IMG/VR virus record: IMGVR_UViG_3300010885_045068 | Span: 1-21,115 of that record | Direction: 5' to 3' (one strand) | Length of the DNA: 21,115 nt | Source of the DNA: a virus | Shown here: piece by piece, positions 3,787-21,000 of the stretch | Position numbering within the stretch: position 1 is the first letter of the stretch | How the letters are laid out: each line of letters starts with the position of its first letter | The notes under the pieces: model-generated | The model's database searches: none | What the model was told of the DNA's origin: nothing | The model's input: only the letters and a program-made list of their open reading frames with translations | Translations under genes and position numbers: made by a program

Positions 3787-3971
3787 ACGCCCGCGAAGTC
3801 CAGCACGACCTTGAACTCGCCGCGTGGCAGATGGCAGAGGCCACCACCTTGGAACGGAAAGCTGCCAAGCTCCGACTGGAAGCCACCAAGACCATTGCCT
3901 CCGCCGCCGCCCAACTCAAGCAGGCCATCGAGACGGCCACCAACCGTCAACCCTCACTCAAATCCGCATGA
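3783..3971 (+). CDS. Small helical hypothetical protein
   Basis: A 62-residue protein, starting in the ATGA overlap with the helicase loader gene and ending in an ATGA overlap with the next gene. It is almost wholly predicted helix, with heptad-like spacing of Leu/Ala from about residue 8 to 52, so a coiled coil or helical hairpin is likely. No known motif is recognised. The precise double overlap with two convincing neighbours is the main argument that it is expressed. Confidence 0.55.
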   Translation: MNAREVQHDLELAAWQMAEATTLERKAAKLRLEATKTIASAAAQLKQAIETATNRQPSLKSA

Positions 3972-4850: not shown

Positions 4851-6441
4851 CAGTAACAAGCCATTGATCGACCTCCGCAATACCCCTGCGGCCTCCCGTG
4901 CCTGGCGAGTCTCGAATCTCTACACGATCCGGGATGCGGATGGGCGGCTCGTCTCATTCGATCCAAATCTCGCGCAGCGCCGGTTCTACAACCACCTCTG
5001 GTATTGCAACCACGTCCTCAAGGCCCGGAAACTGGGATTTTCCACTCTGATCGAGATCCTCAACCTCGACGACCTCCTCTTCACCACCACCGGCCTATCG
5101 GCAGGAATCATCGACTACACGATCGAGGATGCGGAATCGAAGCTCTCCATGATGGTCACCGCCTACGAGCACCTCGACGACGGAGACATTCACCCCCTCA
5201 CCTACAAGCTCGGAGCCCTCATCAAGAAAGCCATCAAGCTCGAATCCCGCGCCACCCGGAAACTCCAATTCTCCAATGGCTCCCGCGCTCAATGCTCCAC
5301 CTCGCTGCGCGGCTCTACCCCAAACCGCCTCCATGTTTCCGAACTCGGGAAAACCGCCGTTTGGGCTCCCATCAAGGCCCGGGAAATCGTGAACGGTGCC
5401 TTCAACTCCATGACGCCGGGGAACGTCCGGAACATCGAGAGCACCCACGAAGGTGGGAAGGTGGGGGAACACTACCGCCTCCTGCAGAACTGCATGCGCC
5501 AGGACCCCGCCACCCTTTCCCAGATCGATTCCCGCTTCCACTTCTTCCCCTGGTATGAGGATCCGCGCTACGTCCTCGACTACCACGGCCAGCCGATCCG
5601 ACCGGAGATTCTGAAATACGGAGAACGCCTCCACCGCGAAATCGGAGTCTCCCTCACCCTTCCGCAACTCTTCTGGTATGACCGCAAGCACATGGAACAA
5701 GGCCACGGCATGAAAAAGGAATTCCCCTCCACCCCCGGCGAAGCCTTCGAGGCGATGGCGGAGAATGCCATCTACGGAAAAGAAATGGCAGACCTCCGCG
5801 CCGCCGGTCGAATCTGCGACTTCGGCCAAGAACTCTCCGACCCGCTCTTCACCTTCTGGGACATCGGCCTCTCCGACTACTGCTCCAAGTGGCTCATCCA
5901 GCAGGTAGGCCGGCACTTCCTCGTTCTCGATTGGTTCGAGACCGACGGCGCCGGGGCTGGCGTCCACGTCGACCAAATCCGCCGATGGGAAGCCAAATGG
6001 GGCCGCCCCATCGCGGTGAACTTCCTCCCGCACGATGCCAACAAGCGCAGCCCAAACGACGGCAAGAGCTTCCTCCAGACCCTCATCGAAGCCGGACTCG
6101 CCAACTGCCGCGTGGTCCCGCGCACGCCGGACGTCTGGATCGGCATTGGCCACACCCGCGAAGTCCTCCCGCATTGCTGGTTCAACAAGACCCACTGCGA
6201 CACCGCCCGCATCAAGGACGGCGAGGAATTCCCCAGCGGCATCGCCTGCCTGGAGGGATACCAGAAGCACCTCAACCCCGCCGGCACCACCATCCGCGAG
6301 ATGCCCAAGCACGATCTTTTCTCACACTCCGCCGATGCCTTCCGCACCTTCGGAGAAGCCCGCCACCTCGGAATGCTGGAAGCCGCCCACAGCCCCCAGG
6401 TGAAACCAAGAACCATTGGCGGCCCCCGATCAAGACGATGA
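4825..6441 (+). CDS. Terminase large subunit (packaging ATPase and nuclease)
   Basis: A 538-residue protein. The ATPase domain has the non-classical P-loop K-A-R-K-L-G-F-S-T at 66-74, typical of large terminases in which the GKS/T form is replaced. The C-terminal RNase H-like nuclease has its acidic residues at D346 (TFWDIG), D404 (LPHDAN) and D504 (SHSADAFR). The enzyme translocates DNA into the prohead through the portal and cuts the concatemer. The start is uncertain: GTG 4825 overlaps the small subunit gene by 26 nt, and no ATG exists before the conserved domain. TTG 4864 is an alternative giving 525 residues. Neither has a convincing ribosome-binding site. The gene ends in an ATGA overlap with the next gene. 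Confidence 0.9.
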   Translation: MSCRRTGCDSNKPLIDLRNTPAASRAWRVSNLYTIRDADGRLVSFDPNLAQRRFYNHLWYCNHVLKARKLGFSTLIEILNLDDLLFTTTGLSAGIIDYTIEDAESKLSMMVTAYEHLDDGDIHPLTYKLGALIKKAIKLESRATRKLQFSNGSRAQCSTSLRGSTPNRLHVSELGKTAVWAPIKAREIVNGAFNSMTPGNVRNIESTHEGGKVGEHYRLLQNCMRQDPATLSQIDSRFHFFPWYEDPRYVLDYHGQPIRPEILKYGERLHREIGVSLTLPQLFWYDRKHMEQGHGMKKEFPSTPGEAFEAMAENAIYGKEMADLRAAGRICDFGQELSDPLFTFWDIGLSDYCSKWLIQQVGRHFLVLDWFETDGAGAGVHVDQIRRWEAKWGRPIAVNFLPHDANKRSPNDGKSFLQTLIEAGLANCRVVPRTPDVWIGIGHTREVLPHCWFNKTHCDTARIKDGEEFPSGIACLEGYQKHLNPAGTTIREMPKHDLFSHSADAFRTFGEARHLGMLEAAHSPQVKPRTIGGPRSRR

Positions 6442-6782
6442 CCCCCTACCTCCGCGCCTTCCAGGCCTACCACCGGGACGGGGAACCCCACATCCCCTGG
6501 ACGACCGCGCTGGATTTCCACCTCCAACATGGAACGGTGATTTCCTCTCCGGACGCTTTCGCCATGTTCCGGCCGGTCGACTGGGAAGCACCGGACGCAG
6601 AGCACCTTTCGCTCATCGCCTTCCCACCCTCCCATGCCGTGCACGTCTGGGCCGCTGCCGGTCCCCTCGCCGGAATTCTCTACCTCTCCCGCATCGAGAC
6701 TCACGCCAGCTTCCAGCGCCGAAACTCCCGCCTCCACCGCGTGGAACTTCGCCACCTGTTCAAACGACGGGCGCACCCGTAG
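6438..6782 (+). CDS. Hypothetical protein between terminase and portal genes
   Basis: A 114-residue protein starting at ATG 6438 (ATGA overlap with the terminase gene). I do not recognise it. It has a mixed alpha/beta look with a hydrophobic central part (SHAVHVWAAAGPLAGILYLSRI, about residues 65-86), too interrupted to be a clear membrane helix, and a strongly basic C-terminus (RRNSRLHR, KRR). Its last codons contain the first copy of the 15-bp repeat described below, so the DNA there may have both coding and regulatory roles. Position suggests a packaging or head-assembly accessory. Confidence 0.6.
   Translation: MTPYLRAFQAYHRDGEPHIPWTTALDFHLQHGTVISSPDAFAMFRPVDWEAPDAEHLSLIAFPPSHAVHVWAAAGPLAGILYLSRIETHASFQRRNSRLHRVELRHLFKRRAHP
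6749..6763 (+). promoter_or_regulatory. Repeat copy 1: candidate late control element
   Basis: TCGCCACCTGTTCAA, exactly the same 15 bases as at 10105 and 17980. The match with copy 3 extends to 19 of 20 bases (the following A/G then CGAC). It lies in the last codons of the gene before the portal block and ends 37 nt before the ATG at 6801. The function (promoter, activator site or RNA processing site) is inferred from placement only; the strand is given for the orientation shared by all three copies and all downstream genes. Confidence 0.5.
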
Positions 6783-6797
6783 CCGGTAGCCTACGGG
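6776..6797 (+). promoter_or_regulatory. Hairpin just before the start codon at 6801
   Basis: CCCGTAG (6776-6782) pairs with CTACGGG (6791-6797) around an 8-nt loop. The right arm ends 3 nt before ATG 6801 and includes the only purine-rich stretch near that start (GGGGAA). It could modulate translation or stabilise the 5' end of a transcript beginning near the upstream repeat. There is no T-tract, so it is not an intrinsic terminator. Confidence 0.4.
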
Positions 6798-6800
6798 GAA

Positions 6801-6992
6801 ATGGGATCCTCCAAAGCACCCCCGCCTCCGCCGCCTCCGCCGCCTCCAGTCTCCGCCACCGGAGCCGATCAGGCACAGGCCGCCATCGATGCAAAGAAAA
6901 GGGAGAGAGGTCGCTATGACTTTTCCAAAACCCTCCTTGCGCCCGGAAGTCTCGCCTCCATGCCGGACGGCACCAAAACCACCCTCGGATGA
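6801..6992 (+). CDS. Small proline-rich protein preceding the portal
   Basis: A 63-residue protein: MGSSKA, a run of ten prolines (6819-6848), then an Ala/Asp-rich helix containing AAIDAKKRERGRYDFSKTLL and ending MPDGTKTTLG. Short proteins with a Pro-rich start, a polar helix and a KTLLG-like end are common immediately before the connector gene in T7-like and other podovirus genomes; their role is unknown. It overlaps the portal gene by 4 nt (ATGA), which supports expression. The purine-rich GGGGAA directly before the ATG is too close for a normal ribosome-binding site. Confidence 0.7.
   Translation: MGSSKAPPPPPPPPPPVSATGADQAQAAIDAKKRERGRYDFSKTLLAPGSLASMPDGTKTTLG
6819..6848 (+). repeat. CCG/CCT microsatellite coding for ten prolines
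   Basis: Ten consecutive proline codons with a 9-nt period (CCGCCGCCT) repeated almost perfectly. It lies in the small protein before the portal gene. Such tracts can change length by slippage and can stall ribosomes. Confidence 0.8.
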
Positions 6993-8632
6993 AGGACTCC
7001 CGCGCCGAAAAGCTCCTCCAAATGGCTGGGAAACTGACCGCCGAGCGTGCCCCCTGGGACGCTCTTTGGCAGGAACTCGCCGACGTGGTGCACCCCCGGC
7101 GCGGCCTCATCAATACGATCAGCAACACGCCGGACCGCAGCAAGCTCGCCGAGCTCTTCGACGGAACGGCCATGCGTTCCAACCAAACGCTCGCCAATGG
7201 CCAGAGCGCCCGCGTGACGCCCATGGGTGCGCGTTGGTTTGTCCTCCGCCCACCGGCCACCCTTGCCGAGAAACCCGCCGCGGTCGCCTGGTATCATCGA
7301 TGCTCCGAAATCCTCGCCGGCCAGTTTGCCTCCTCGAATTTTTACGGCATCGCCCAGCAGCACTACCTGGACCGGGGAGCCTTCGGCATCGCCGCCACGG
7401 AAGTGACCAGCGGAAAAGGCGGGCAGGGTCTCCACTTCCGTTCCTTCCCAGTCGGCACCTACTCCGTCGCCGAAAACTCCCTGGGGGAAATCGACACGAT
7501 CGTCCGGGAATACTCATGGACCCCGCGCCAGATCATCGAGGCCTTCCCCGATGGCGTGCCTGAGGCCGTCACCAAACGCGCCGCCGATCCGGACACCGCC
7601 AACACCAAGGAGAAGCTCGTCCACTTCGTCATGCCCCGTCAGGACCGGGATCCGCGCAAGGACGACAGCAAAAACAAACCGATCGCCTCCTTTCACATTC
7701 TCCGGAATGAATCTGTGATCCTTCACGAATCCGGCTTCGATGAGATGCCGGTTCCTGTCTCCCGCTGGGCGCAGTGGGGAGAATCTCCCTATGGCTGGGC
7801 TCCGAGCTACGCCGCCCTCCCGGAAGCGACCCAGGCCAACGTCCTCGAGCAGATGATGGACGTGGCCACCGAGACCGCCCTCTTCCCGCGCATCCTCTAC
7901 GGGTCCAACATGAAGGGAGACATCGACTTCCGGGCGATGGGCCTCACCTGCTACGATAGCACCATGGGCGACCCGCCAAGGGAGTGGATGACCCAAGGCC
8001 GGATCGACCTCGCAGAAGCCCGCGCCGAGCGAAAGCGGAAGGCCATCGAGGATTCCTACTTTGTGCCACTCTTCAACGCGGTTTCCCAACTTCGCTCCGA
8101 CGCCACGGCCGAGCAAGTCCGCGCCATCCTTGGCGAAAGTAGGGAACTCTTCCACCCGATCTTTTCCCAGCTATGCCGGGAATTTCTCATTCCCATCCTC
8201 CGCCGCTCCTTCGCCCTCCTCCTCCGCCAGGGAGCTTTTCCACCCCCGCCGCCAGACGTAGTGCAGCGGGACGACCTCGGAAACTACATCGCGGATCCTG
8301 GTGTCGAATTTGTGTCCGCCATGGCCCTCGCCCTCGAGCAGAGCCACCTGGCCAACCTCAACGACATCCTCCAGACCGTCATGCCAATGGCGGCCAGTGA
8401 TCCGTCCATCCTCGATCCATTCGATTGGGACCAAATCATTCCCTACCTCATGCGGACCAAGGGACAGCCCGAAAGTTTCATCCGTCCACCGGAAGCGATT
8501 AACTCCATCCGCGAAGGCCGCGCCCAAGCGCAGCAGGCCCAGCAGGCACAGGCCGCTGCCGCCACCGTGAAAGACCTTGGCGGCATCGACGCCGTCCAGA
8601 ACGCAGCGGGTGCCCTTCCCGCTCAAAACTAA
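6989..8632 (+). CDS. Portal protein (podovirus head-tail connector)
   Basis: A 547-residue protein starting at ATG 6989 (ATGA overlap). It matches the podovirus head-to-tail connector family (PF12236 type; T7 gp8 is the classical example). Visible hallmarks are an N-terminal helix with RAPWDALWQELADVVHPRRG, LFDGTAMRSNQTLANG, a conserved MGARWFVLRP strand, FPVGTYSVAENSLGEIDTIVREY, the MPVPVSRWAQWGESPYGWAPSY core, and a helical clip/barrel region ending near FVSAMALALEQ. Twelve copies form the ring through which DNA is packaged and ejected. Length is normal for the family. The C-terminus has a Gln/Ala-rich helix (AQAQQAQQAQAAAA), as in many connectors. The gene is followed by a 9-nt C-rich spacer. 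Confidence 0.92.
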   Translation: MKDSRAEKLLQMAGKLTAERAPWDALWQELADVVHPRRGLINTISNTPDRSKLAELFDGTAMRSNQTLANGQSARVTPMGARWFVLRPPATLAEKPAAVAWYHRCSEILAGQFASSNFYGIAQQHYLDRGAFGIAATEVTSGKGGQGLHFRSFPVGTYSVAENSLGEIDTIVREYSWTPRQIIEAFPDGVPEAVTKRAADPDTANTKEKLVHFVMPRQDRDPRKDDSKNKPIASFHILRNESVILHESGFDEMPVPVSRWAQWGESPYGWAPSYAALPEATQANVLEQMMDVATETALFPRILYGSNMKGDIDFRAMGLTCYDSTMGDPPREWMTQGRIDLAEARAERKRKAIEDSYFVPLFNAVSQLRSDATAEQVRAILGESRELFHPIFSQLCREFLIPILRRSFALLLRQGAFPPPPPDVVQRDDLGNYIADPGVEFVSAMALALEQSHLANLNDILQTVMPMAASDPSILDPFDWDQIIPYLMRTKGQPESFIRPPEAINSIREGRAQAQQAQQAQAAAATVKDLGGIDAVQNAAGALPAQN

Positions 8633-8641
8633 CCCCTGACC

Positions 8642-8953
8642 ATGCCAACCAATGCCGAGAAAGAAAATCACGCGCGTAGTGTCGCCGCCACCGAGCAACG
8701 AACTCGAATCCTCGCCGACGTTCGTGCCACCTATTCCAGCGACCACGGAAAACGCACCCTCGACGTCCTTCGCCTCCGCTGCGGATACGATCGTCCCGCC
8801 TTCCTACCGACCGCCGGCAGCCCCCTCGATCCCCTCGCCGCCGCCTTCCGAGACGGACGACGGTCCATCTATCAGGAAATCCTCGACGACCTCGCCACCG
8901 CCGAAGACAAGCCCATCAAGCTCCCCGTCGCCATCCGCCCCACCGACCCCTGA
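8642..8953 (+). CDS. Bbp19-like phage protein
   Basis: A 103-residue protein. Residues about 22-87 match the Bbp19-like phage domain: ADVRATYSSDHGKRTLDVLRLRCGYDR, then a DPLAAAFRDGRRSIYQEIL helix. Members are short and lie next to the connector gene in BPP-1-like podoviruses; their function is unknown. The start at ATG 8642 follows a spacer ACCCCTGACC and has no Shine-Dalgarno. The gene ends CCC-TGA-C (8948-8954), a known type of +1 frameshift-prone stop, and the +1 frame stays open and coding-like to 9122 (see the separate entry). The overlapping +1-frame ATG at 8652 reads a Ser/Pro-rich shadow before that point. Confidence 0.82.
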   Translation: MPTNAEKENHARSVAATEQRTRILADVRATYSSDHGKRTLDVLRLRCGYDRPAFLPTAGSPLDPLAAAFRDGRRSIYQEILDDLATAEDKPIKLPVAIRPTDP

Positions 8954-9122
8954 CCCGGTCAACGGCACCGCCTCCCTCGAGTATTGCACCTGGGCCGCGC
9001 GGAACCTGACCGACGAGAAATTCCTGGAACTCTACCAACACCGCGCCGAGCGGATGATCGGGGAGTTTTCGGATCTCTCAGACAGCGCCAGCGCCGTCGA
9101 ATGCCTCAAGGCCCTTCTCTAA
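8952..9122 (+). CDS. Coding-like extension without its own start (possible +1 frameshift product)
   Basis: Fifty-six codons in the +1 frame after the Bbp19-like gene, with a normal protein-like sequence: a helix containing ASLEYCTWAARNLTDEKFLELYQHR, then a second with SASAVECLKALL. No ATG, GTG or TTG occurs in frame until 9054, too late to include the first helix. The simplest reading is +1 slippage at CCC-TGA (8948-8953), where Pro-tRNA re-pairs with CCT, giving a 159-residue fusion. Alternatives are translation from ATG 8652 (156 residues, overlapping the Bbp19 frame; its first 100 residues look like out-of-frame Ser/Pro reading), a rare non-standard start after the C-rich leader, or a base error. 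The product is unrecognised. Confidence 0.5.
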   Translation, partial: DPVNGTASLEYCTWAARNLTDEKFLELYQHRAERMIGEFSDLSDSASAVECLKALL

Positions 9123-9133
9123 CCCCCTGAACC

Positions 9134-10033
9134 ATGTCAGACACCGCCACCATCGACGCCATCGATACCACCGCCACGGTGGACACCAGCACTCCGCAGA
9201 CCCCGGCCACGCCCGCCGCCGTGGTCGATACCACCCAGACCCCGCAGGCCACCGCCCCCGTCTATTTCAACGCCGACGGATCGCTTGGGAAAGACTGGCA
9301 CCTCGGACTCGGAGACGAGTTTGCACCGTACGCTTCGCAGCTCGCCACGTTCAAGGACGTGAAGGGCCTCGCCAAGTCCTACGTTCACCTCCGCGCCAGC
9401 GGTCCCGCCTATCCCACCGACGCCAGCACCCCGGAGGAAGTTTCCCGCTTCCGCCAGCTCGCCCAGGTCCCGGAGTCGCCGGACGGCTACGGACTCACCC
9501 CACCGGAAAACCTTCCCGAAGGAGTCGTCTGGGATGATGCCATGTCGAAAAGCTTCGCCGAGCTCGCCCACAAGCACCATGTCCCGGCCGGAGCCGTGAA
9601 AGCCATCGCCGACCTGCAAGTCCAGATCGAAACCGATCGCGCCCAGAAGCTGCAGGACACGATGAAGAACATCCGGCAGGAAGCGGAAAACGCACTGGTC
9701 GCCGAATGGCGCGGGAACTTCGAGCAGAACAAGAGCGTCGTCCGCCACCTCGCCGGACGCCTAGCGGAAAGCGCCGGCATCCCCGCCGACGATCCGATCT
9801 TCGCGGAAATCGTCAACGTGCCGGCCTTTGCCAAGATCATGCTCCAGGTCTCTAAGCTCACCGCCGAGGATGCCGTCCGCGTACCCGGCGGATTCGGCGA
9901 CCTCCGGAGCCCACAGCAACGCGCCAATGAAATCATGAACGGTGGCGATAAGGAATGGGGATCGAAGTATCAGGACGGCGACAAGCAGGCCATGGCCCTC
10001 GTTTCCGATCTACTCAAGCAAGCCGCAGGCTAA
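9134..10033 (+). CDS. Putative capsid assembly scaffolding protein
   Basis: A 299-residue protein between the portal block and the major capsid gene, the standard position for a scaffold. The N-terminus (about 1-45) is Thr/Pro/Ala-rich and acidic, probably disordered. Then comes the segment GDEFAPYASQLATFKDVKGLAKSYVHLRASG, which recurs in scaffold proteins of many podoviruses (an F-x-x-Y...LAKSY-x-x-L pattern). A DGYGL-x-PPENLPEGV turn follows, and then a long charged helix region (about 140-205) suited to coiled-coil assembly. Scaffold proteins guide head formation and leave or are degraded before packaging. The start ATG 9134 follows the spacer AACCCCCTGAACC. It is followed by tandem hairpins, including a terminator. 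Confidence 0.75.
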   Translation: MSDTATIDAIDTTATVDTSTPQTPATPAAVVDTTQTPQATAPVYFNADGSLGKDWHLGLGDEFAPYASQLATFKDVKGLAKSYVHLRASGPAYPTDASTPEEVSRFRQLAQVPESPDGYGLTPPENLPEGVVWDDAMSKSFAELAHKHHVPAGAVKAIADLQVQIETDRAQKLQDTMKNIRQEAENALVAEWRGNFEQNKSVVRHLAGRLAESAGIPADDPIFAEIVNVPAFAKIMLQVSKLTAEDAVRVPGGFGDLRSPQQRANEIMNGGDKEWGSKYQDGDKQAMALVSDLLKQAAG

Positions 10034-10035
10034 CC

Positions 10036-10060
10036 TTTCCGGCAACGGCATTGCCGGAAA
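10036..10060 (+). other. Perfect 10-bp hairpin after the scaffold gene
   Basis: TTTCCGGCAA (10036-10045) and TTGCCGGAAA (10051-10060) are exact inverted copies around a 5-nt loop. No T-tract follows on either strand, so it does not look like a terminator by itself. It starts three bases after the scaffold stop codon and is followed 8 nt later by the real terminator. It may protect a 3' end from exonucleases or be a processing site. Confidence 0.6.
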
Positions 10061-10068
10061 AAGGGGGA

Positions 10069-10099
10069 CCCCTGGAACACTCGATGTTCCAGGGGTTTT
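10069..10099 (+). terminator. Intrinsic terminator between scaffold and capsid genes
   Basis: CCCCTGGAAC (10069-10078) pairs perfectly with GTTCCAGGGG (10086-10095) around a 7-nt loop, followed at once by TTTTCTATTT. This is a textbook rho-independent terminator. It would reduce read-through from the portal/scaffold unit into the capsid gene and lies only 5 nt before repeat copy 2. Confidence 0.85.
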
Positions 10100-10104
10100 C
10101 TATT

Positions 10105-10119
10105 TCGCCACCTGTTCAA
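10105..10119 (+). promoter_or_regulatory. Repeat copy 2: candidate late control element before the capsid gene
   Basis: TCGCCACCTGTTCAA, identical to the copies at 6749 and 17980; copy 1 shares one more T on the 5' side. It starts directly after the intrinsic terminator's T-tract and lies 178 nt upstream of the capsid start in non-coding sequence. This is the placement expected of a promoter that restarts transcription after a terminator. The following bases (TGGAT) differ from the CGAC seen after copies 1 and 3. Confidence 0.55.
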
Positions 10120-10297
10120 TGGATGATTTTTGCGGATTCCCGGAAAGTGGCAGCGCAGTCGAATAACGGTCAATCCCTCACCGGACCCGTTGACACGACC
10201 CGCCGCCACCGGGGCGCTTCCCGCAGGCCACGACCCTCATCCGAGGACAATCAGACGCCGGACTCTCACCAACTCCGAACTCTTATTTCCTCTCGCC
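10120..10297 (+). other. Long leader of the capsid gene
   Basis: This 178-nt stretch between repeat copy 2 and the capsid ATG has no convincing gene. A TTG-started extension of the capsid frame (from 10130) gives a Pro/Arg-rich stretch that looks non-coding. There is no Shine-Dalgarno before 10298 (the leader ends TCCTCTCGCC). It is the longest untranslated leader in the window and could carry expression or stability signals, but I see no strong fold. Confidence 0.5.
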
Positions 10298-11248
10298 ATG
10301 AGCGCAGACCTCATCATTCCAAATCACTTCACGACCCAGTTCGACACGAACTGGCGCAATCTCGTTGGCCAAACCAACGAACGCCTCAAAGCCAAGGTCC
10401 AGGTTGAAACCGGTTGCACCGGCGAAGCCAAGACCTACAACCAAGTCGGAGACATCGCCTCCGAAGACGTCACCGGTGACCGCTACAAGAAAGTCGTTCT
10501 CCTCGACCTTCCCACCGCGAAACGCTGGGTCCGCCCACGCCAGCTCCAAGCTGTCACTGGCGAAAGCCGGTGGGACGAAAAGGGACTCCTCCCCACCATC
10601 GCGCCGCGCGGGAAGCACACGCTCGCCCACGCCCGTGCCTATGGTAAGGACGTGGATGACCGCATCATCGCCGCCCTTGGTGGCACCGCTTATTCCGGCA
10701 CGGAAGGCACCGATGCAAACGCCCTACCCTCCACCCAGAAAGTGGCGCGTGACTGGGTGCTCTCCGGTTCCGCCACCGACTCCGGACTCACGGTCGCCAA
10801 GGTCATCCAGTCCCTCCAGATCCTCGGCAACAACGAGGCCTGGAACGAGGACCAAATGCGGGCAGGAAACATGCTTCAGGGTGTCATGACTTCCAAGCTG
10901 GAAGCCGCGCTCCGCCACGAAGCCTCCTCCACCACGGGTTCCCGTTTGTTCAGCACTGACTTCATGCCCCCCACGCTCGATGAGCAAGGCCGCATCAAGC
11001 AGTTCATGGGCATCAACTGGACGATCTCCAATCGTACGGCGCTCCTCAACAGCTCCACGGTGCACTTCGCCTACGTGTGGGTGCAGGACACCATCCAGTT
11101 CAGCGTGTGGGAAGACCTCACGACCACCATCGATCGTCGTCCGGACCTCTCCAACGCCATCCAGTTCATGAGCCAATACTCCTTCGGAGCGGTTCGCCTG
11201 GAGGAAGAAAAGGTCGTCCAGATCGCAGGAGTTGTCCCAACCACCTGA
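10298..11248 (+). CDS. Major capsid protein
   Basis: A 316-residue protein starting at ATG 10298. The pattern matches the phage capsid family represented by PF19821 (Phage_capsid_2) in BPP-1-like podoviruses. It has an N-terminal helix with FDTNWRNLVGQTNERLKAKV, then GEAKTYNQVG, a basic RWVRPRQL strand and loop, DVDDRIIAALGGTAYSGT, and later the KVIQSLQILGN helix and GINWTISNRTAL near the C-terminal third. The fold is expected to be HK97-like (family knowledge). The gene follows the scaffold gene but is separated from it by a terminator, repeat copy 2 and a long leader, so it probably has its own high-level expression. The next gene starts 36 nt later. Confidence 0.85.
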   Translation: MSADLIIPNHFTTQFDTNWRNLVGQTNERLKAKVQVETGCTGEAKTYNQVGDIASEDVTGDRYKKVVLLDLPTAKRWVRPRQLQAVTGESRWDEKGLLPTIAPRGKHTLAHARAYGKDVDDRIIAALGGTAYSGTEGTDANALPSTQKVARDWVLSGSATDSGLTVAKVIQSLQILGNNEAWNEDQMRAGNMLQGVMTSKLEAALRHEASSTTGSRLFSTDFMPPTLDEQGRIKQFMGINWTISNRTALLNSSTVHFAYVWVQDTIQFSVWEDLTTTIDRRPDLSNAIQFMSQYSFGAVRLEEEKVVQIAGVVPTT

Positions 11249-11284
11249 TCCACCCCCACCACCAACTCCTAGAAAATCACCACC

Positions 11285-11755
11285 ATGGCTGACTTCAATT
11301 CCACCATCATCAACAAGGCCCTCGCGGTCGACTCTGGCCGGCAAGGTGCCGGTATTGTCGACGGAGACGACGTGACCGGCGTGGTCCTCCTGGCCACCAT
11401 CCGCTACACGCTGACCGGCAGTGAAGCCGCGAGCGATACCATCCAGCTCGTCGACCTCCCGCTCGGCGCAGTGGTTGTTCCACAGAACAGCTACTGCACG
11501 TGCGCCGACCCCGGAACGACCCTCACGCTCAACGTGGGGGATGCGTCCAGCGCCACACGCTACGCATCCGGGATCGTCATGAGCGCGGGCGGACAGGTTG
11601 GCTTTGCCAGCGGAACCCTCCCCGCCGCCGTGGCGACCCCTTACCGGATCGCCACCACTGCGAATCAGCGCCTTGTCTGCACCGTGGCTTCGGCCGCGAC
11701 GCTGACTGCCGCCGTGGTCGTCGTGTTCACCATCGCCTACCGCGTCAAAGGCTGA
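11285..11755 (+). CDS. Probable head decoration or capsid-associated protein
   Basis: A 156-residue, beta-rich protein of Thr, Ser, Ala and Val with few charges in its second half. It carries IRYTLTGSEAASDTIQLVDLPLGAVVVP and then TLTLNVGDASSATRYASGI, a pattern (GD-x-x-x-x-x-RY-x-x-G) seen in small proteins encoded directly after this type of capsid gene. A role in decorating or stabilising the head is inferred from position and from the predicted beta-sandwich character. It has no signal peptide; the Ala/Val-rich end (ASAATLTAAVVVVFTIAYRV) resembles a membrane stretch but fits alternating beta strands. It shares the capsid cassette and ends just before the second terminator. Confidence 0.65.
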   Translation: MADFNSTIINKALAVDSGRQGAGIVDGDDVTGVVLLATIRYTLTGSEAASDTIQLVDLPLGAVVVPQNSYCTCADPGTTLTLNVGDASSATRYASGIVMSAGGQVGFASGTLPAAVATPYRIATTANQRLVCTVASAATLTAAVVVVFTIAYRVKG

Positions 11756-11791
11756 CCCCGTTTCTGTGTTGTAGTGTAACTGTATGGGTTG

Positions 11792-11842
11792 CCGCCCGCG
11801 CCCAGGTCCTTCGGGACCGAAAGCGCGGGCGGTTTTCTTTTC
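11792..11842 (+). terminator. Strong intrinsic terminator with UUCG tetraloop
   Basis: The outer stem CCGCCCGCGC (11792-11801) pairs with GCGCGGGCGG (11823-11832). The inner stem GGTCC (11805-11809) pairs with GGACC (11814-11818) around a TTCG loop, and TTTTCTTTTC follows (11833-11842). C(UUCG)G loops are very stable and common in terminators. It closes the capsid/decoration cassette only 10 nt before the tail tube A start, so tail genes should depend on read-through or on another promoter. Confidence 0.9.
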
Positions 11843-11852
11843 TCCCTGACTC

Positions 11853-12488
11853 ATGGCTCTCCCCATCGTCACCACCGCCACCGACATCGCTAACCTGGCA
11901 CTCTCCGAACTCGGAGCCCGCCAGCTCACCGACATCGAGACGGACACCACCGAGGAGGCCAAGGCCTGCCGCCAGCACTTCACGCGCGTCCGGGATGGAT
12001 TGCTCCGGGAACACCAGTGGAACTTCGCCCTCACCCGCGCCGAGCTCTCCGCCACCACCGACCCGCCCACCGAATGGGGCACCGCCTGGACGCTTCCCGC
12101 AAACTGCGTCCGCTTCATCCGGATCGTGACCGAGGACCCGGTCAATCCCGTCCGGGACTTCGCCCTCGAAGGCCGTCTCCTCCTCGTCAATGGCGTGGAT
12201 AAGGTCACCGAGAAGATCAACATCGTCTACATCTCCAATGCGGTCGCCATCAGCGCATGGGATTCTCTCTTCATCGACGCCATGGTCTTCGCCCTCGCCG
12301 CGAAGATCGCCAACCGCGTGGCCCAGAATCCCGCCATGGCCACCGACATGGTTTCCAAATTCAAGAGCCTCGCCCTCCCGGCCGCCACCAATGCCGACGC
12401 TCGGGAAGTCGCCTCCGGGGAAAACTCGGGGGTGCATTGGCTCGTCTCTCAAAGCCAGCTCGTCAACGCCCGCCGCGCCACCCGCTGA
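11853..12488 (+). CDS. Tail tubular protein A (T7 gp11-like)
   Basis: A 211-residue protein. The N-terminus ATDIANLALSELGARQLTDIETDTTEEAKACRQHF, then RDGLLREHQWNFALTRAEL, is the signature of podovirus tail tubular protein A. It is followed by the usual W-x-x-AWTLPANCVRFIRI turn and a C-terminal helix (FIDAMVFALAAKIANRVAQN). Twelve copies sit under the portal ring and connect it to the tail nozzle. Length is typical (about 190-220). The start ATG follows closely after the terminator T-tract with no Shine-Dalgarno, and the next gene begins 3 nt after the stop. Confidence 0.9.
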   Translation: MALPIVTTATDIANLALSELGARQLTDIETDTTEEAKACRQHFTRVRDGLLREHQWNFALTRAELSATTDPPTEWGTAWTLPANCVRFIRIVTEDPVNPVRDFALEGRLLLVNGVDKVTEKINIVYISNAVAISAWDSLFIDAMVFALAAKIANRVAQNPAMATDMVSKFKSLALPAATNADAREVASGENSGVHWLVSQSQLVNARRATR

Positions 12489-12491
12489 CCC

Positions 12492-14981
12492 ATGCCAGGA
12501 CCCTCCCACCAGTCCTTTCTCTCGTTCAATGCTGGAGAGCTTTCTCCCTATCTGAACTACCGCACGGACTTTGCCAAACACGCCAGCGGAGTCTCCATCA
12601 TGGAAAACTTCCTGCCGATGCCCTTCGGCGGATTCCGCAAGCGCCCCGGCACGCTTTATCTCGCCACCCTTTCCGGCGCCTGCCGCATCCAGACCTTCTA
12701 TGTCTCAGGAGGGACCGCCTACACACCCGCTGCCGCCGTCAGCTCCTCCGGCCAGATCGCCGACGAATCCGAGGGGACGTCCTACATCCTCGCCTTCTCG
12801 ACTACCCAGATCAAAATCTATCAGACCGACGGCACCCTCAAGCAGACCCTTTCCCTCGCCACGGCCGATCCCTTCCGGCTCCAGATGGCCCAGGTGAACA
12901 ACGTCATGTTCATCGTCGGCCCGGACATCGTTCCGCAGTCGCTGACCTTCACCCTCTCCACCGTCACCTTCGCCCTGGACGAGACTCCCTTCAGCTACCC
13001 GCCACTCCTCGACGAAAACAGCACCGAGACCCTCACCATCGCCACCAGCTTCACCAACGTCCTCATCGGATCCACCTGGGTTACCGGCACCTCCTACAGC
13101 GTAGGCACCATCGTAAAGGTGGACGGCGTGGGCAGCTTCGAATGTATTACCGCCCACACCAGCTCCTCCGGTAACAAGCCGCCCGATACCTTCTGGAAAT
13201 CGGTGGAGGACAACAGCAGCACCATCGGTCAATCCGTTACCCTCACTGCCTCCTCCGCGCTCTTCAACGCCTCCCACGTCGGAGCCACGTTCAAAATCTC
13301 CAAGAAACGCCCAGCCGACCTTTTCGAAACCTCGATTGCCGCGACCGCCGCCAATAACGGCAAATGGTCAACTGCCATCCCCGTCCAAGGCGCTTGGGCC
13401 TTCAATACACTGGGAACTTGGGACGGCACATTCACCCTCCAAACGAGCACCGACCATGGCGTCTCCTGGACAGACTTGCGCCAATACGCAGGAGAGAAAA
13501 ACCGGAACATCGCCGACGAAGGCACGCAAGACGTCCGCGTCATGATGCGAGTAAAATGGAGCTTCGGAACCACCGGCACCTCTGCGCCAAAAGGAATCCT
13601 CTCCTCATCGGAACCCTACATTTCCGGCCTCGTCAAGATCACCGCTGTTTCCAGCAGCACCGTCGCCACCGCCACCACCGTCTCCCCGGTGGAATCCTGC
13701 ACCACAGAATTCTGGACCGAAGGAGCCTTCTCCGCCTACCAAGGCTTTCCCGCCGCCATCGGGATCCATGAGCGGCGCCTGGTCTATGGCGGCACCACCC
13801 TGAAGCCCTGCTCCATCTGGGCCTCTAAGACCGACGACCTTCTCAACTTCACGACCGGCACCGACGCGGATTCCTCCATCTTCGTCACGCTCGCCGGCAC
13901 CCGCATGGACCCCATCCGCTGGATTGCCAGCCAGCGCCGACTCTTCATCGGCACCGGCGGCGGAGAATGGGTCTTCGGATCGGAAACCACCGACTCACCC
14001 CTTTCCCCCTCCAACCTCCTCGCCCGGGAATACACCCGCTTCGGATCGACCACCCTCCCGGCCCTGGTCCACCACGATTCCATTTTCTTCGTGGAACGCC
14101 AAGGCCGCCGCCTCCGGGAAATGGCCTATCAACTCCAGAGCGAGAGCTACGACGCGGCCGATCTCTCCCGTCTCGCCGAGCACATCACCACCGGCGGCAT
14201 CACTCAACTTGCCTGGCAGCAAAACCGCGAGCCCTACCTCTGGGCCATCCGCGCCGACGGAACGCTCCTCTCGTTCAACTACGCGCGCGACGAACAGATC
14301 GCAGCCTGGTCACGCCATACCACCTACAACGGACTCTTCAAATCCCTGGCCGTCATTCGCAACCAAGCCAACGACGATTCGATCTTCTTCGTGGTAAAGC
14401 GGGGGACCTCCTACATCCTCGAAAAATTCGCCACCCGCCAGCAGGCCTACCAGGAAGGCGAAGGCGTCCTCCTCTCCTATCACGGAGTCGATTGCGGCAG
14501 CGTCGGAACTTTCTCCACTCTCGCCCTACCAGCCATCCACCGCGGCACCACCGTCACCATCACCCGAGGTCTCATCGCCGGCACTGCCACTTGCAATGGC
14601 AGCACCGGTCTCCTCACCACCACCACCGCCGCCGCTTCCCCCTACGACGTCTGCCACGCCGGCTACCCGATCACCGCCACCCTCACCACGCTTCCGCTCG
14701 ACGTCACCGCCGACACCGGCAGCACCCACTTCCGGCGGAAGCGGGCCAATGAGATCGTCCTTTCCGCCTACTCCTCAAACGGCGGAACCGTGACCTACAA
14801 CGGAGATTCTCAGCCGCTCGTCTATAACACGGCCAAGATCGCGGCTTGGGGCACTGGCATCCTCGAGACCACCCTCCCCGCCGGATTCGTGGACGACCTC
14901 ACCTTCACCCTCACCCACGCCGAGCCCTACCCCTTCCTCGTCCGCGCCATCATCCTCCGCTGGAGCCTCCACGAACCATGA
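12492..14981 (+). CDS. Tail tubular protein B (nozzle, T7 gp12-like) with a carbohydrate-binding insert
   Basis: An 829-residue protein. The start, QSFLSFNAGELSPYLNYRTDFAKHASGVSIMENFLPMPFGGFRKRPGT, is the canonical tail tubular protein B opening. The C-terminal half has the propeller-like repeats expected of the nozzle (FGSTTLPALVHHDSIFFVERQGRRLREMAY and similar). Residues about 190-240 (W196 near the start, then VGTIVKVDGVGSFECITAHTSS, W235 near the end) match the CBM5/12-like module often inserted in nozzle proteins; such modules bind polysaccharide. Six copies form the tail tip in T7. The insert may help surface attachment to the host envelope (inference). The gene ends in an ATGA overlap with the cupin gene. 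Confidence 0.9.
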   Translation: MPGPSHQSFLSFNAGELSPYLNYRTDFAKHASGVSIMENFLPMPFGGFRKRPGTLYLATLSGACRIQTFYVSGGTAYTPAAAVSSSGQIADESEGTSYILAFSTTQIKIYQTDGTLKQTLSLATADPFRLQMAQVNNVMFIVGPDIVPQSLTFTLSTVTFALDETPFSYPPLLDENSTETLTIATSFTNVLIGSTWVTGTSYSVGTIVKVDGVGSFECITAHTSSSGNKPPDTFWKSVEDNSSTIGQSVTLTASSALFNASHVGATFKISKKRPADLFETSIAATAANNGKWSTAIPVQGAWAFNTLGTWDGTFTLQTSTDHGVSWTDLRQYAGEKNRNIADEGTQDVRVMMRVKWSFGTTGTSAPKGILSSSEPYISGLVKITAVSSSTVATATTVSPVESCTTEFWTEGAFSAYQGFPAAIGIHERRLVYGGTTLKPCSIWASKTDDLLNFTTGTDADSSIFVTLAGTRMDPIRWIASQRRLFIGTGGGEWVFGSETTDSPLSPSNLLAREYTRFGSTTLPALVHHDSIFFVERQGRRLREMAYQLQSESYDAADLSRLAEHITTGGITQLAWQQNREPYLWAIRADGTLLSFNYARDEQIAAWSRHTTYNGLFKSLAVIRNQANDDSIFFVVKRGTSYILEKFATRQQAYQEGEGVLLSYHGVDCGSVGTFSTLALPAIHRGTTVTITRGLIAGTATCNGSTGLLTTTTAAASPYDVCHAGYPITATLTTLPLDVTADTGSTHFRRKRANEIVLSAYSSNGGTVTYNGDSQPLVYNTAKIAAWGTGILETTLPAGFVDDLTFTLTHAEPYPFLVRAIILRWSLHEP

Positions 14982-15430
14982 ACTCCCTGCTTTCCATCAC
15001 CGAGGGACCGTCCATCGACCAGCTAGAGGCCGCCCTCTTCGCCAGCGGAGAGGAGCGCATCAACTTCCCCATCGTCCACCGCTTCACCCCTGGGCTCTAC
15101 ATCCGGGAAATCACCATGCCCGCCGGTGCTCTCCTCACCAGCATGGAACACCTCACCGAGCATCCCTTCATCATTTCCAAGGGAGCCGTCGAAGTGATCG
15201 ACACTCACGGCAACGCCGTCCTCCTCACCGCGCCACATACCGGCATCACCCTCCCCGGCACCCGCCGCGCCCTCCATTGCCTGGAAGAAACCATCTGGAC
15301 CACCTTCCACGTCACCGAGGAAACCGACGTGGAAAAGATCATCGAGTCCATCACCCGCCATCACAACCCACTCGCGCCCGGCATCCCTCAGGGTTGGCGC
15401 TTGTCCATCCCTGAAAATCTACCCCTATGA
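14978..15430 (+). CDS. Cupin-fold phage protein
   Basis: A 150-residue protein starting at ATG 14978 (ATGA overlap). The central part is a phage-typical small cupin: FPIVHRFTPGLYIREITMPAG, then SMEHLTEHPFIISKGAVEV, and APHTGITLPGTRRALH followed by WTTFHVTE. Histidines at H58, H62 and H111 (and possibly H87) are placed as metal ligands of a cupin barrel. Phage proteins of this kind lie in tail or ejection operons and their role is unknown; a structural or regulatory use of the fold is as likely as enzyme activity. Tight overlap on both sides implies production with the tail proteins. Confidence 0.78.
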   Translation: MNSLLSITEGPSIDQLEAALFASGEERINFPIVHRFTPGLYIREITMPAGALLTSMEHLTEHPFIISKGAVEVIDTHGNAVLLTAPHTGITLPGTRRALHCLEETIWTTFHVTEETDVEKIIESITRHHNPLAPGIPQGWRLSIPENLPL

Positions 15431-15930
15431 GTGTCTGGGTCATCGGCATTACCACCGTCATTTCCACCGCTGCCACGGTATACGGCCAGCAGCAACAGGC
15501 CAAGGCCGCGACCAAAGCCGGCGAATACAACAACATCCTCGCCGATCAGGAGGCCAAGAACGTGGAACTCCAGAACATGGAGCAGCTCAAGCGCGAGCGC
15601 ATCAAGAACCGCCGTGCCATGGCGGACATCCGCAATCGCATGGCTCAGAATGGAGTCCTCAACACCGAGGGAACCCCGCTCGCCATCCTCGGAGAATCCT
15701 CCGCCAACTTCAACCTCGGCATCCAGGACGCCGCCCGCGCCTCCAACATGCAGGCCGCCTCCCTCCGAGCCCAAGGCCAGATGGGTCTCTGGGAAGCCGA
15801 CCAAGGCCAAGCCGCCGCCAACATCAACAGCGTGGCCACCGGCCTAAACGGTGCCAGCAAAGCCTATAGCACCTGGACAGACCGCCCCACTTCCACGCCG
15901 TCCAGCACCACCCGCACCAAACGCACATGA
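15427..15930 (+). CDS. Small internal virion protein (T7 gp14-like)
   Basis: A 167-residue protein starting at ATG 15427 (ATGA overlap). A hydrophobic N-terminal segment (about 3-20, VWVIGITTVISTAATVYG) precedes a long Gln/Ala/Lys-rich helix region, the conserved RERIKNRRAMADIRNRMAQNG and TEGTPLAILGESSANFNLGIQDAARASN. This is the usual pattern of the smallest ejection protein in podoviruses, which forms a channel in the outer membrane when DNA is released. The position before two larger ejection-type genes fits T7 order (gp14, gp15, gp16). The Ser/Thr/Pro-rich C-terminus is probably disordered. Confidence 0.78.
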   Translation: MSVWVIGITTVISTAATVYGQQQQAKAATKAGEYNNILADQEAKNVELQNMEQLKRERIKNRRAMADIRNRMAQNGVLNTEGTPLAILGESSANFNLGIQDAARASNMQAASLRAQGQMGLWEADQGQAAANINSVATGLNGASKAYSTWTDRPTSTPSSTTRTKRT

Positions 15931-17978
15931 TCCGCCTCCCAGAAATCCCCGACCTCCAGCAGACCGCCATCCGCATGCCGGAAATGAGCGGGAAGTCCCC
16001 GCAGGCCACCGCCCTGGGAAACCTCGCCCAGTCCATCGGCAACGTCGGCGAAGCTTTCGCCAAGCATGCAGACACCATCGACAAGCAAGACCAGCTTTAT
16101 AAAAGCTCCGACTGGAGAAACAAATTGAGGGAGAATTACGCCAACTTCCAACTCGAAAACGCCAAGGAACCCGATCCGGTCAAAAGGCTCAAAAGTGAAA
16201 AGGACTGGCTCGTCACCTACAAGGGCAGCCTGGAAGACCAGGGATTCAACGATGAAACCAAGAACCGCGAATCACTCCACTACGACGACTTTGCGACATC
16301 CGCCCGCATCGGCTCCGCCCAAGATGCCGCCCGACAGAATACCCAGCGGGCCGCGCTGGCGTGGAGCAACGAGTATGAAGCGCTCAAAGAACGAGGAGAC
16401 CGGGAAGGCTATGCAGACCTCAGAAAACGCGGAATCGATGGAGGCATCCTCCTTCCTGAGCAACTCGACAAAATGGACAAAGACTTCGAAAAAGCCGTCA
16501 ATAACTACGACCGCGCCATCAAATTTCAGGACCTCCAACGCCAGATCGACCAGAACCCGCATGGTCTCCTCAACTCACTAGAAAAGCCGGACGCGCCGCA
16601 GGCTTACGGGCTGGATACGGAGGCAATCGACTCCCTACGCCGACAGGCTGCCCACAAGAAGAACCAACACGACGGAGAATTCTGGGATGGAGTCTTGAAC
16701 CAGACCCTCACCTCCGGCAGCCCGACGATTTCCAAAGAGGACCTTCAAAAGCTCGCCGAGGATGGCAGCATTTCCCCAAACCAACGCGCCAGCTACCTCA
16801 ATGCCTACTACGGCCCCACGGAACCCTCCTACGACGAGGGGATCTTCTCCAAGGTCCATGAAGCCATTGCCAGCTATGACCCGTCCAAGGACCCCACACA
16901 GTCCGCCCTAGCCAAAATGCGCGGAGACCTCGCCACCGTCCCGCTTCCCAAGGAGTCCCTCCGCGTTCTCAACGACCAGCTTTCCGGAAAACTAAAATCC
17001 CCGGACTCTCCCAAGAACCGACTGGAAAGCGACTTCAGCCGCCAGACCGCCAACCATTTCGACAGCGGACGCTTCGGATCGTGGTTCGCCCTGAAGGACA
17101 CCGACAACAACCCGTCGACCGCCCCAACCAAGGTCATCAACGCCGTAGACTACGGCAAGGCCCTAATCACCCGCCGCCATTTCCTCGATGCCTGGGACTC
17201 CTACCTCAAGGCCGCCCCAGCCGACCTCCCACCAGAGGAAGCCCAGAAAACCTACGACACGCTCTTCCAGAAGATCGTGGTCGACAAGGCACCGCTCCCC
17301 GACCTCTCCGTCCCCGGCAGCGCTCCCGCGCCGGACTTTGAAAAGGAACTCGACAAGCTCTTTCCCCAAAAGTCCAAGCCCACAGACAAATCCACCTCCT
17401 CCACCTTTGGAGGCCAGCCGATCCAGCCCGCCGGGCGTTACTACGAAAACGCCAGACCCACCGTGTTCGGCGGCACCAACGACCCAGCCGACAACGGGCT
17501 CAGCGCCTTCGGAGGCACCACCGGAGCCGGTGGACGGGAAGGCGTGGCCATTCCGCAGAGCATCCTCGCCGCCACTTTCCCAGGAAAGGACAAGAAATGG
17601 ATTGCGGATAACGTAAAGGTCCACGTGAAGACCGACGCCGGCACCGATGCCGTCCTCAACGTGGCCGACTACGGCACCGCTGAATCGATTTGGCAACGTG
17701 ACAAGCGCCCCGTGCTCGACCTGACAGAAGGAGCCATCGCCCAGCTTGGAGGCCGCGCCACCTACAACTCGCACGGGAAGCTTTCCGGAGTGGAGGGATT
17801 CAAGAACGTCAACTTTGCCCTCACCACCGGCAAGGCAGGAACCCTCCCCCCGGATTCCCCATGGGAAGACCTCTGGAAAGACTGGTTCGCCGACAAGCGC
17901 CCGACCCATCCCGACCAGATCCAGAGCGGACTCGCTGCCCTATGGGACTCTCACCTGATGGCAAAGGCCGGGGAATAA
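15927..17978 (+). CDS. Internal virion protein (gp15-like position) with C-terminal RlpA-like double-psi barrel
   Basis: A 683-residue protein starting at ATG 15927 (ATGA overlap). Residues 1-370 are charged and mostly helical (many Lys/Glu/Gln repeats), as in internal ejection proteins. A Pro/Gly/Ser-rich linker (about 450-530) leads to a compact domain at about 536-606. It reads VAIPQSILAATFPG, then VKVHVKTDAG with VADYGTAES (D581), and PVLDLTEGAIAQLGG (D598). This fits the double-psi beta-barrel of the RlpA type, where a D-x-G turn and a DLT/S-x-x-A ending flank the active-site groove in peptidoglycan-acting members. Murein degradation or binding during DNA entry is a reasonable inference, not shown. 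The gene ends TAA directly before repeat copy 3. Confidence 0.72.
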   Translation: MIRLPEIPDLQQTAIRMPEMSGKSPQATALGNLAQSIGNVGEAFAKHADTIDKQDQLYKSSDWRNKLRENYANFQLENAKEPDPVKRLKSEKDWLVTYKGSLEDQGFNDETKNRESLHYDDFATSARIGSAQDAARQNTQRAALAWSNEYEALKERGDREGYADLRKRGIDGGILLPEQLDKMDKDFEKAVNNYDRAIKFQDLQRQIDQNPHGLLNSLEKPDAPQAYGLDTEAIDSLRRQAAHKKNQHDGEFWDGVLNQTLTSGSPTISKEDLQKLAEDGSISPNQRASYLNAYYGPTEPSYDEGIFSKVHEAIASYDPSKDPTQSALAKMRGDLATVPLPKESLRVLNDQLSGKLKSPDSPKNRLESDFSRQTANHFDSGRFGSWFALKDTDNNPSTAPTKVINAVDYGKALITRRHFLDAWDSYLKAAPADLPPEEAQKTYDTLFQKIVVDKAPLPDLSVPGSAPAPDFEKELDKLFPQKSKPTDKSTSSTFGGQPIQPAGRYYENARPTVFGGTNDPADNGLSAFGGTTGAGGREGVAIPQSILAATFPGKDKKWIADNVKVHVKTDAGTDAVLNVADYGTAESIWQRDKRPVLDLTEGAIAQLGGRATYNSHGKLSGVEGFKNVNFALTTGKAGTLPPDSPWEDLWKDWFADKRPTHPDQIQSGLAALWDSHLMAKAGE

Positions 17979-17979
17979 C

Positions 17980-17994
17980 TCGCCACCTGTTCAA
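17980..17994 (+). promoter_or_regulatory. Repeat copy 3: candidate late control element
   Basis: TCGCCACCTGTTCAA, identical to copies 1 and 2, and followed by GCGAC (ACGAC after copy 1). It begins 1 nt after the stop codon of the previous gene and ends 38 nt before the ATG at 18033, almost the same distance as copy 1 to its gene. It lies in one of the few non-coding gaps of the window. Confidence 0.55.
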
Positions 17995-18032
17995 GCGACT
18001 CCCTCCCCACGCTATGGGACCATGCCCCCTGC

Positions 18033-21000
18033 ATGGCTGACATCTCGCTTCCTTCCCCGCCGGACTACCTTCCCGACTACTCTGGCCCCGCTGCCACCAT
18101 GCCGGTCTCTCAGGACCCGGCCACCGCAGCCAATGCCGCCATCCTTGGCGATGGCCATTCAGTCGCTCAAAAACCCGCCCGCACGGATCGCCAAAACCCG
18201 GCGGATTTCTTGAGTATCCCGCCACCGGCACCGGATGCCCCGCCGTCATCCATCGACATCGCCACCGGTAGGAAGACCACCATCCCCGAGGCCACCGCCT
18301 GGGGAGCCTTTCAGACCCTGAAGGCAAACCCCAAGGTCCTCGACGAACCGCAGCCGGACGGGACCACCCTCCGCGCCAGGCTGACCGATACCGTTTCGAG
18401 CTACTACGACGAGCGGAAAGCCAACAATCAAAAGCCGTTCCCGACTTACGCCGCAGAAGCTGTGGCTGCGCGAAATGCCCACCACGAAAAGCTTTTTTCC
18501 GGACTCGATAAACTCGACGCCGCCCTCACCCCGGAACAGAAAGCCGCCCTTGACGACCGGGCAAAGCTCGCCCCCGATCCGGACGCCTACCGCGCCCGCG
18601 CCATCAACTTCCAGTATCTCCGGGACCTTGACACACCGGTGACGCAGGAAAACTACCCCATCGCCCGCAGCGCCTACGCCGTGCAGCTAGGCCTTCCCGC
18701 CGAGGCCGACGACAAGGCACTCTACAACGCCATTGGCAACCGCCAGCGCGTGGCCACCGAGACCACCAAGACCCTTTCCAAGGCCATCCAGAAGGCCATG
18801 CAGACCGTCCTCATGGGCGACGGCCGCCCGGAGATCCGGGAGCAGCAGCTCAAGGACCTCCTCGCCGCCACGCCCGACGAGCACAAGAGCTTCGTCCGCC
18901 AGCAATTCACCAACTCCTGGAAAGACGCCCGCGACCTCGCCCGCCAGGCGAAGCCCGTGGTCGACCAGATCATGCCGCTACTCCTCGAAGGAGCCAACGC
19001 CAAGGAAGGCAGCCTCCAGGACACCTTCGGCAGCCACTTCGAAAAGGCCGGAGCCATGCTACCCGCCGATCAACCCGGCGGAAACCCGATGCGCGAGGCC
19101 GTGCTGGCCCAGCTTGAGGGGAAGATGAAGGCGATCAACCCCGAGGACTACGCCGGGTTCTCCCGCTTCTACGAGGCCCTTGCCCAAGGCACTGGAAACA
19201 TTGCACGCGGCACCTTTGACATGGGAGTCGCCCTTCGCCAGTGGAGTGACGAGACCGCCAAGAAAGCCGGCATGACCATTCCCGGCACTGACACCCGGGA
19301 GAATGCCGCCGCCGCTCATGACGATGCCCGGAAAATGCGGAACCTAACCGCCGCCACCGCAGGCAGTTTCCGCCGGAAAGACGATGGATTTATCCGCAAT
19401 GGTCTCCTCTCTGCCACCGAATCCGTTCCCTACACCCTTCTCGCCTTCGAGGGTCCGGCAGGCTTTGGCCTCATGACTTCCAGTATGGGAGGCCAATCCT
19501 TCCAAGACGCCCGACAGGCCAACCCAAACGCCTCACCCGCTCGCCAGGCAGAAGCCGCTCTTGTTTCCGGAGCCCTGCAAGCCGTCCTCGAAACCGTCTT
19601 CGACCATGCCGGCCTACGAATGGCCAAGATGAAGGTCCCCGGACTTTTCGCCGCCCTCAACAAGACCGGCGTGACCAATGCCACCGGACGCGCCGCCATC
19701 ACCGGCACCGCCGCCGCCCTTGGTATCCTTGGCACGGAATACACGGAAGAATTTGCACAGCAAGGAACCGACCGCGCCCTGCAGGACATGGCGCTTTCCC
19801 TCTCCGGCATCGATCCGACGACCAACTGGAAGGGTTTCTTCCACGACTGGAATCCGCTTTCCGGTAGCCAGGTTTCCATGGACACCCTCGGAGCAGTCCT
19901 CCCCTACGCCCTCATAGGCGGAGGAGTCGCCAGCTTCCAGAACTACCGCTTTGCCAATACCCTGCAACGCTCGACTCCCAGGCTCCGCTCCCTGGGTATC
20001 CCGGAGGAGCGCGTGCAGGCCATCGCCACCGCGCCCACGCTGGAAGACGCCACCACCGAACTACGCAGCGCGTGGAGGGATGGGCTGGACCTAGCCGCCG
20101 CCACCAAACAGCGGGAAAAGCTTTCCGCCATCGCCGAGGAAACCGTCGCCTTCTACGGCCAGAGCCCCATCCAAGTGATCCAACCGGAAAACAACGACTT
20201 CACCGGCGAAACTCAATTCCAGCTCAACCTCCCGGACGCGCCCCCCCGGGTGTTCCAGACTCTCGACGAAGCCTTCGATGCCCTCCGTGACTTCCACGCC
20301 AACCAACTGGGCGATGACCTCGACACCCTAAACGATGCCACCCGTCAGGACCTGATCGACTTCATGACCGGCGAATACTCCGCCGCCGCCAACATCCGCA
20401 TCACCGATCGAAGCAAGCTCGCCCTCACCCCAGACCAAGCCGTTAAGCAAGGGATCGCAACACAACAACAGATGACCGAGCGCCTCCGCATCCACGCCAT
20501 GCAGGAAGGCGTGGACGTCGCCGACCTCGATCTTTCAACCCTACGCATCCACGCCCGCCGCTTCTCCGAGCGCATGCGGGACGGCAGCCTCCGCCAGACG
20601 GTGGAGTATTTCCAAGGAGCCGACCCCATCAACGTGGCCGAGGACATCGCGGAAACCTACTGGACTAGCGCCCTCGACGAGGGACTTCTCAAACATGACG
20701 AGATCGTCGGCTGGATCCGCCAGGCCGAGCAGGTTACCGGCAACAGCTACCTCGACCCAAGCCACGACAGCACCAGCGACCGCGCCCAGCTTCAACTTAC
20801 CGAGGCCCTTTCCGCCTTCTCCCGCGAATACCTCGCCGGGAACGTCGCCGACGAGCGCCTGCCGGAAAAGTTTCGCCGCTGGCTCCACACCCTGATCGCT
20901 TACGCCGCCCATAAATTCCGCCACGCCGCCACCCTGCTCCGGTCAAAGCCGCTCATGGATGCCGTGAAGGCGGGAAAGATCGATTCCCGCTTCGTCGCCC

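Follow-up and report, generated by a model that had tools for sequence, protein, structure and literature searches.

Repeated sequence boxes at the borders of the structural gene units of a phage are likely to be activator-dependent late promoters, of which there would be about four per genome in a family of probably temperate podoviruses of Verrucomicrobiae. The DNA analyzed here is a virus record of 21,115 bp (the window). As described in an initial annotation, it contains three exact copies of the 15-mer TCGCCACCTGTTCAA, at 6749-6763, 10105-10119 and 17980-17994, all on the plus strand, and an exact search of the window revealed none on the minus strand. That such a repeat is unlikely to arise by chance was borne out, as TCGCCACCTGTTCAA is the sole 15-mer present at least three times on one strand of the window; Markov simulations yielded any 15-mer with at least three copies on one strand in 0 of 300 cases at order 2 and in 2 of 300 at order 4. 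We also found copy 1 within the final codons of a gene that stops at 6782, copies 1 and 3 identical at 19 of 20 bases and ending 37 and 38 nt ahead of the ATGs at 6801 and 18033, and copy 2 just after a terminator (hairpin at 10068-10096 with a T-rich tail), in agreement with the previous description. The conserved unit is longer than the 15-mer and comprises approximately 18 bp (6747-6764, 10103-10120 and 17978-17995), followed 22 nt downstream by a -10-like hexamer. Its dyad symmetry is modest, with 331 of 20,000 column shuffles being equally symmetric. A look-alike at 11241-11253, which had been suggested as a weaker copy, scores below the matrix threshold and by inspection has no xAnnnT at 21-23 nt; with the -10 absent at the right place, it was rejected as a further site. 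The features of the window are listed below.

3968-4357, plus strand: 129-aa protein with a predicted MarR-like winged-helix fold, candidate late activator, directly upstream of TerS
6747-6764, plus strand: putative activator box, copy 1 (CTTCGCCACCTGTTCAAA), located in the last part of the gene at 6438-6782
6787-6792, plus strand: -10-like hexamer TAGCCT, 22 nt past box 1 and 8 nt ahead of ATG 6801 (predicted leaderless start)
6801-6992, plus strand: 63-aa ORF, first of the portal unit, its start backed by protein conservation
6989-8632, plus strand: portal (head-to-tail connecting protein), PF12236
10068-10096, no strand assigned: terminator after the scaffold gene, a hairpin and then T-rich sequence, reported by the scan tool on the minus strand only, the plus-strand T-run (TTTTCTATTT) being seen by eye
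10103-10120, plus strand: putative activator box, copy 2 (TTTCGCCACCTGTTCAAT), by the 18-bp matrix
10143-10148, plus strand: -10-like hexamer GAAAGT, 22 nt past box 2
10149-10297, plus strand: putative capsid leader of about 150 nt, its sequence conserved in both clades of relatives (see below)
10298-11248, plus strand: major capsid protein, PF19821
17978-17995, plus strand: putative activator box, copy 3 (ACTCGCCACCTGTTCAAG), by the 18-bp matrix
18018-18023, plus strand: -10-like hexamer GACCAT, 22 nt past box 3 and 9 nt ahead of ATG 18033
18033-21115, plus strand: 5' part of a giant polyvalent/virion-protein gene (3193 aa in the fuller contig G001, 18033-27614)

G001, with 35,735 bp, has the same first base as the window and differs from it at 14 positions. 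It is probably complete, since its ends share a repeat of about 123 bp (from the alignment to G003), and it harbors a fourth box copy with one change at 27625. Box copies are also present in G002 and G003, for which identity over the aligned parts is approximately 96%. Pfam and PHROG scans gave podovirus-family matches for the portal, capsid, tail and internal virion proteins. Identity of the portal to those of epsilon15-type phages is about 28%, and a DnaC-like loader, a RusA-like protein and an amidase are also encoded. The giant protein of 3193 aa contains LPD37 and a weak ADP-ribosyltransferase-like match, which are typical of polyvalent proteins. The phage looks temperate, because a minus-strand ORF (with no Pfam match) was read by eye as an integrase and because relatives lie within host genomes. 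Verrucomicrobiae are its likely hosts, since of 384 genomes sampled from the class to which an Akkermansiaceae genome belongs, 38 contained portal relatives. One further relative sits in a MAG labelled Acidobacteriia, a label that may be a binning error.

The motif was then sought in the fuller genome and in related phages, and the box was found at corresponding places in nine first-clade genomes, over which an 18-bp matrix gave 39 matches on the plus strand and three weak ones on the minus strand. The box recurs ahead of the portal unit, between the terminator and the capsid gene, in front of the internal virion/giant-protein unit, and past the end of the giant gene; these places vary per genome, some being absent in some genomes, and some contigs are fragments. 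The boxes number four or five, in the late region, with none on the early/repressor side. The carriers are the eight relatives of the window phage, as well as prophage modules that are split up within a closed host chromosome. In one relative a box lies upstream of the gene for the MarR-fold protein itself (L162:327). In the second clade the portal and capsid places are occupied by a box of another sequence, TTTCCCCGCTTCAAT, with little dyad symmetry by eye, and L178 has CATTCCCCTTAAAT. In distant prophages (portal identity of about 40% or less) a search for a shared box revealed no clear portal/capsid pair, and the repeats that G171 and G143 contain differ from it in sequence. The putative capsid leader contains a recurring GGACAATCGAGCCGGA-like segment. 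An Rfam search at copy 2 and the leader gave no family above the gathering score, and a consensus RNA fold of the leader was discarded, as just three pairs were predicted from an alignment that is too loose.

The pattern xAnnnT follows the box at 21-23 nt in 38 of the 39 first-clade-box sites, a selected set of 32 phage sites and seven sites of the closed chromosome G219, and in 25 of the 39 the distance is exactly 22 nt. Elsewhere the pattern occurs at 2.9% per offset, and 8.5% would be expected at 21-23 nt from the other offsets; the rule was noticed in the same 39 sites, which share descent, and a binomial p thus overstates its significance. In the window phage alone, the distance is exactly 22 nt at all four sites. 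The second clade, checked after the rule had been seen in the first, has xAnnnT at 22-23 nt in 27 of 29 sites. The hexamer is often TAnnnT, and since its first base is often G or C, these -10s are weak. The -35 position, corresponding to the bases just 3' of the box, is not conserved, and a scan found no sigma70-type promoter near copy 2. The box lies 35-40 nt ahead of most start codons, and at approximately 24 of the 28 non-capsid sites the start codon is located 5-11 nt past the hexamer.

An extra box in G004 heads a non-coding tRNA-tmRNA unit, which argues for a promoter and not a translation element. The tRNA-Met (16594-16670) and the tmRNA (16677-17035; reversed coordinates) lie between two boxes, and the -10 of the extra box at 16583-16588 predicts a start near 16595, at the 5' end of the tRNA-Met. 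The tmRNA (L111:623-1064, minus strand) has an Rfam score of 114.9 bits and the tag GTNNARSGTEFGDLALPA. Neither tRNA nor tmRNA was found in the window phage.

The comparison thus shows late units headed by the 18-bp box, a spacer of 21-23 bp and a sigma70-like -10. At most non-capsid sites the first transcribed base would coincide with the start codon or lie next to it, resulting in leaderless mRNA, as suggested by the start codon 5-11 nt past the -10, while at the capsid site the promoter located after the terminator would give rise to a leader of approximately 150 nt. We propose that the box, centred at about -43, would be bound by an activator of the phage, for which the MarR-fold protein is the most likely candidate, and that this activator would replace the -35 element and recruit or activate host RNA polymerase. 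The portal, capsid, ejection-protein and tail units could thus be switched on together late in infection, and a change in the activator would entail a change in all boxes of the genome.

As in systems of the Mu C or P2 Ogr kind, a shared box on the transcribed strand heads several late units, the -10 follows at a fixed distance, and a good -35 is missing. By analogy, the boxes may work like these systems; membership in either is not claimed. Mu is a temperate phage with four late promoters (lys, I, P and mom) served by one phage activator, C, and host RNA polymerase; these promoters have non-consensus -10 and -35 elements and an activator site at or upstream of -35 (PMC4461284). The apparently temperate lifestyle, the four late promoters, the box at or upstream of -35 and the non-consensus elements are shared, and a single phage activator working with host polymerase would add to this likeness of architecture. 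In contrast to Mu C, the candidate activator described here has a predicted MarR fold, many starts look leaderless, and the phages belong to a podovirus family. Four late promoter regions with a common activator motif, and no sigma70-type promoter, are also found in the P2-like phage phiRSY1 (PMC5694545), and these traits are shared. However, Ogr is a zinc-finger protein and its site is a TGTTGT-N13-ACAACA dyad 50-90 nt ahead of the start codon, whereas here an 18-bp box is found 35-40 nt ahead of most start codons. A third point of comparison are the leaderless TANNNT promoters of Deinococcus-Thermus and Mycobacterium, in which a TAnnnT -10 lies just ahead of the start codon (PMC12340547, PMC3898074). 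Judged from sequence, this arrangement, with the -10 approximately 6-8 nt before the start codon, is matched here by a spacing of 5-11 nt at about 24 of the 28 non-capsid sites. Those promoters belong to host genes, while here weak -10s are combined with a phage-specific box further upstream.

All 14 genomes that cover the spot ahead of TerS encode the MarR-fold protein. Its model has a pLDDT of 85, and the top Foldseek matches are nearly all MarR proteins (E from about 1e-3 to 2e-2, prob about 1.0, TM about 0.6); at E<=0.01 it has no Pfam or PHROG match. The recognition-helix region differs between the clades, and the divergence of the protein correlates with that of the box (r=0.66), compared with 0.25 for TerS, 0.15 for TerL and 0.24 for the clamp-like p226. 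This correlation is partly due to shared ancestry, because a tail protein (0.67) and the portal (0.56) also correlate and because r is 0.24 inside the first clade alone. MarR proteins are mostly repressors; on balance, we lean towards this one (3968-4357) as the late activator. The other conserved early protein, p226 (226 aa, window 1545-2225), has a model (pLDDT 86) with a weak Foldseek resemblance to sliding clamps of bacteria (best E 0.014, prob 0.63, TM about 0.3-0.4).

The closed host chromosome G219 is one contig of 4,916,937 bp. It contains six exact occurrences of ATTGGCCANNTGTTCA, compared with approximately 0.04 expected (14 fixed bases, both strands; hand arithmetic). Three of these and one site with one mismatch head identifiable phage modules: the portal unit, the capsid gene and the internal virion gene, scattered over about 170 kb, have one box upstream of each, and the one-mismatch site heads a 115-aa gene. 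The remaining exact boxes are at 3908790, 3912654 and 1450472, with a tail-gene relative about 1.5 kb past 3912654, and the MarR-fold protein gene is present at 3788775. The region C1 3.75-3.92 Mb (L221-L223, L243-L250) contains scattered phage modules, several of them still headed by a box. They may represent a prophage that has decayed or been domesticated, or else a gene-transfer-agent-like system. A long tandem GGTCATC-type repeat follows the scaffold gene, ahead of the next ORF (L222, approximately 1640-2300), and TGTTCGATGTTC repeats are dispersed around the modules.

It is possible, if less likely, that the promoter reading is right and that something other than the MarR-fold protein binds the box, be it a host regulator, an alternative sigma factor or a different phage protein, since further small conserved phage proteins exist and binding by the MarR-fold protein is only predicted. 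However, the exact box is rare in G219 and is found mostly at phage modules, which makes a general host promoter unlikely; in an 11.9-Mb MAG with the g10 prophage, the 15-mer was barely enriched (375 matches against 313 for the reversed control, at <=3 mismatches), and a host-wide promoter was rejected. Further, the different boxes in the two clades suggest a phage-borne, fast-changing factor, and p226 was dismissed as the activator, since its divergence does not follow that of the box and its predicted structure is clamp-like. A phage sigma factor, one of the options raised in the initial annotation, was not detected in Pfam/PHROG scans of the main ORFs.

That the boxes are repressor sites silencing late transcription in the lysogen, like the stoperators of mycobacteriophage L5, seems quite improbable. 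It would suit a phage with an integrase-like minus-strand ORF (by eye) and relatives in host genomes, and the box resembles the L5 sites in being short, asymmetric, one-directional and mostly intergenic (PMC9283540). However, L5 has more than 20 sites including early promoters, while here four or five are restricted to the late region; neither a -10 at fixed spacing nor the start codon is needed by a stop site, a stop site right after a terminator would be redundant, and one copy heads a tRNA-tmRNA unit, so that the opposite function can be argued. A promoter of a phage single-subunit RNA polymerase of the T7, Syn5 or N4 type could account for a repeated one-directional 15-bp motif at unit borders, once past a terminator, but is extremely unlikely: PF00940, which detects the Syn5, T7 and N4 polymerases, gave no match in eight contigs with boxes, searches with the polymerases of T7, Syn5 and the N4 virion returned nothing, no alignment of the giant protein with them was obtained, and xAnnnT 22 nt downstream would not be needed. 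The box presumably bears a loose resemblance to the Syn5 promoter, a likeness which was dropped, as no polymerase was found.

The late promoter or late activator site originally suggested is thus supported by the conserved position, the strand bias, the placement after a terminator and the -10 at fixed spacing, while its recognition by a phage polymerase is not, and the option that best accounts for the data is an activator of the phage that works with host polymerase. We consider it improbable that a hitherto undescribed class of MarR-fold late activators is at work in these phages, its recognition drifting with all boxes of the genome and its late mRNAs mostly leaderless, together with one Verrucomicrobiae chromosome in which scattered phage modules form one box regulon in the style of a gene-transfer agent.

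To our knowledge, little is known about transcription control in phages of Verrucomicrobia. The analysis describes a putative late regulon that can be tested, with its box, spacing, -10, start site and candidate activator; it occurs in many genomes as well as in a closed chromosome, and the box predicts which genes would be switched on together. The diverged activator-box systems may serve as material for studying how recognition changes. Last but not least, leaderless late mRNAs are indicated in a phylum in which promoter rules are poorly mapped.
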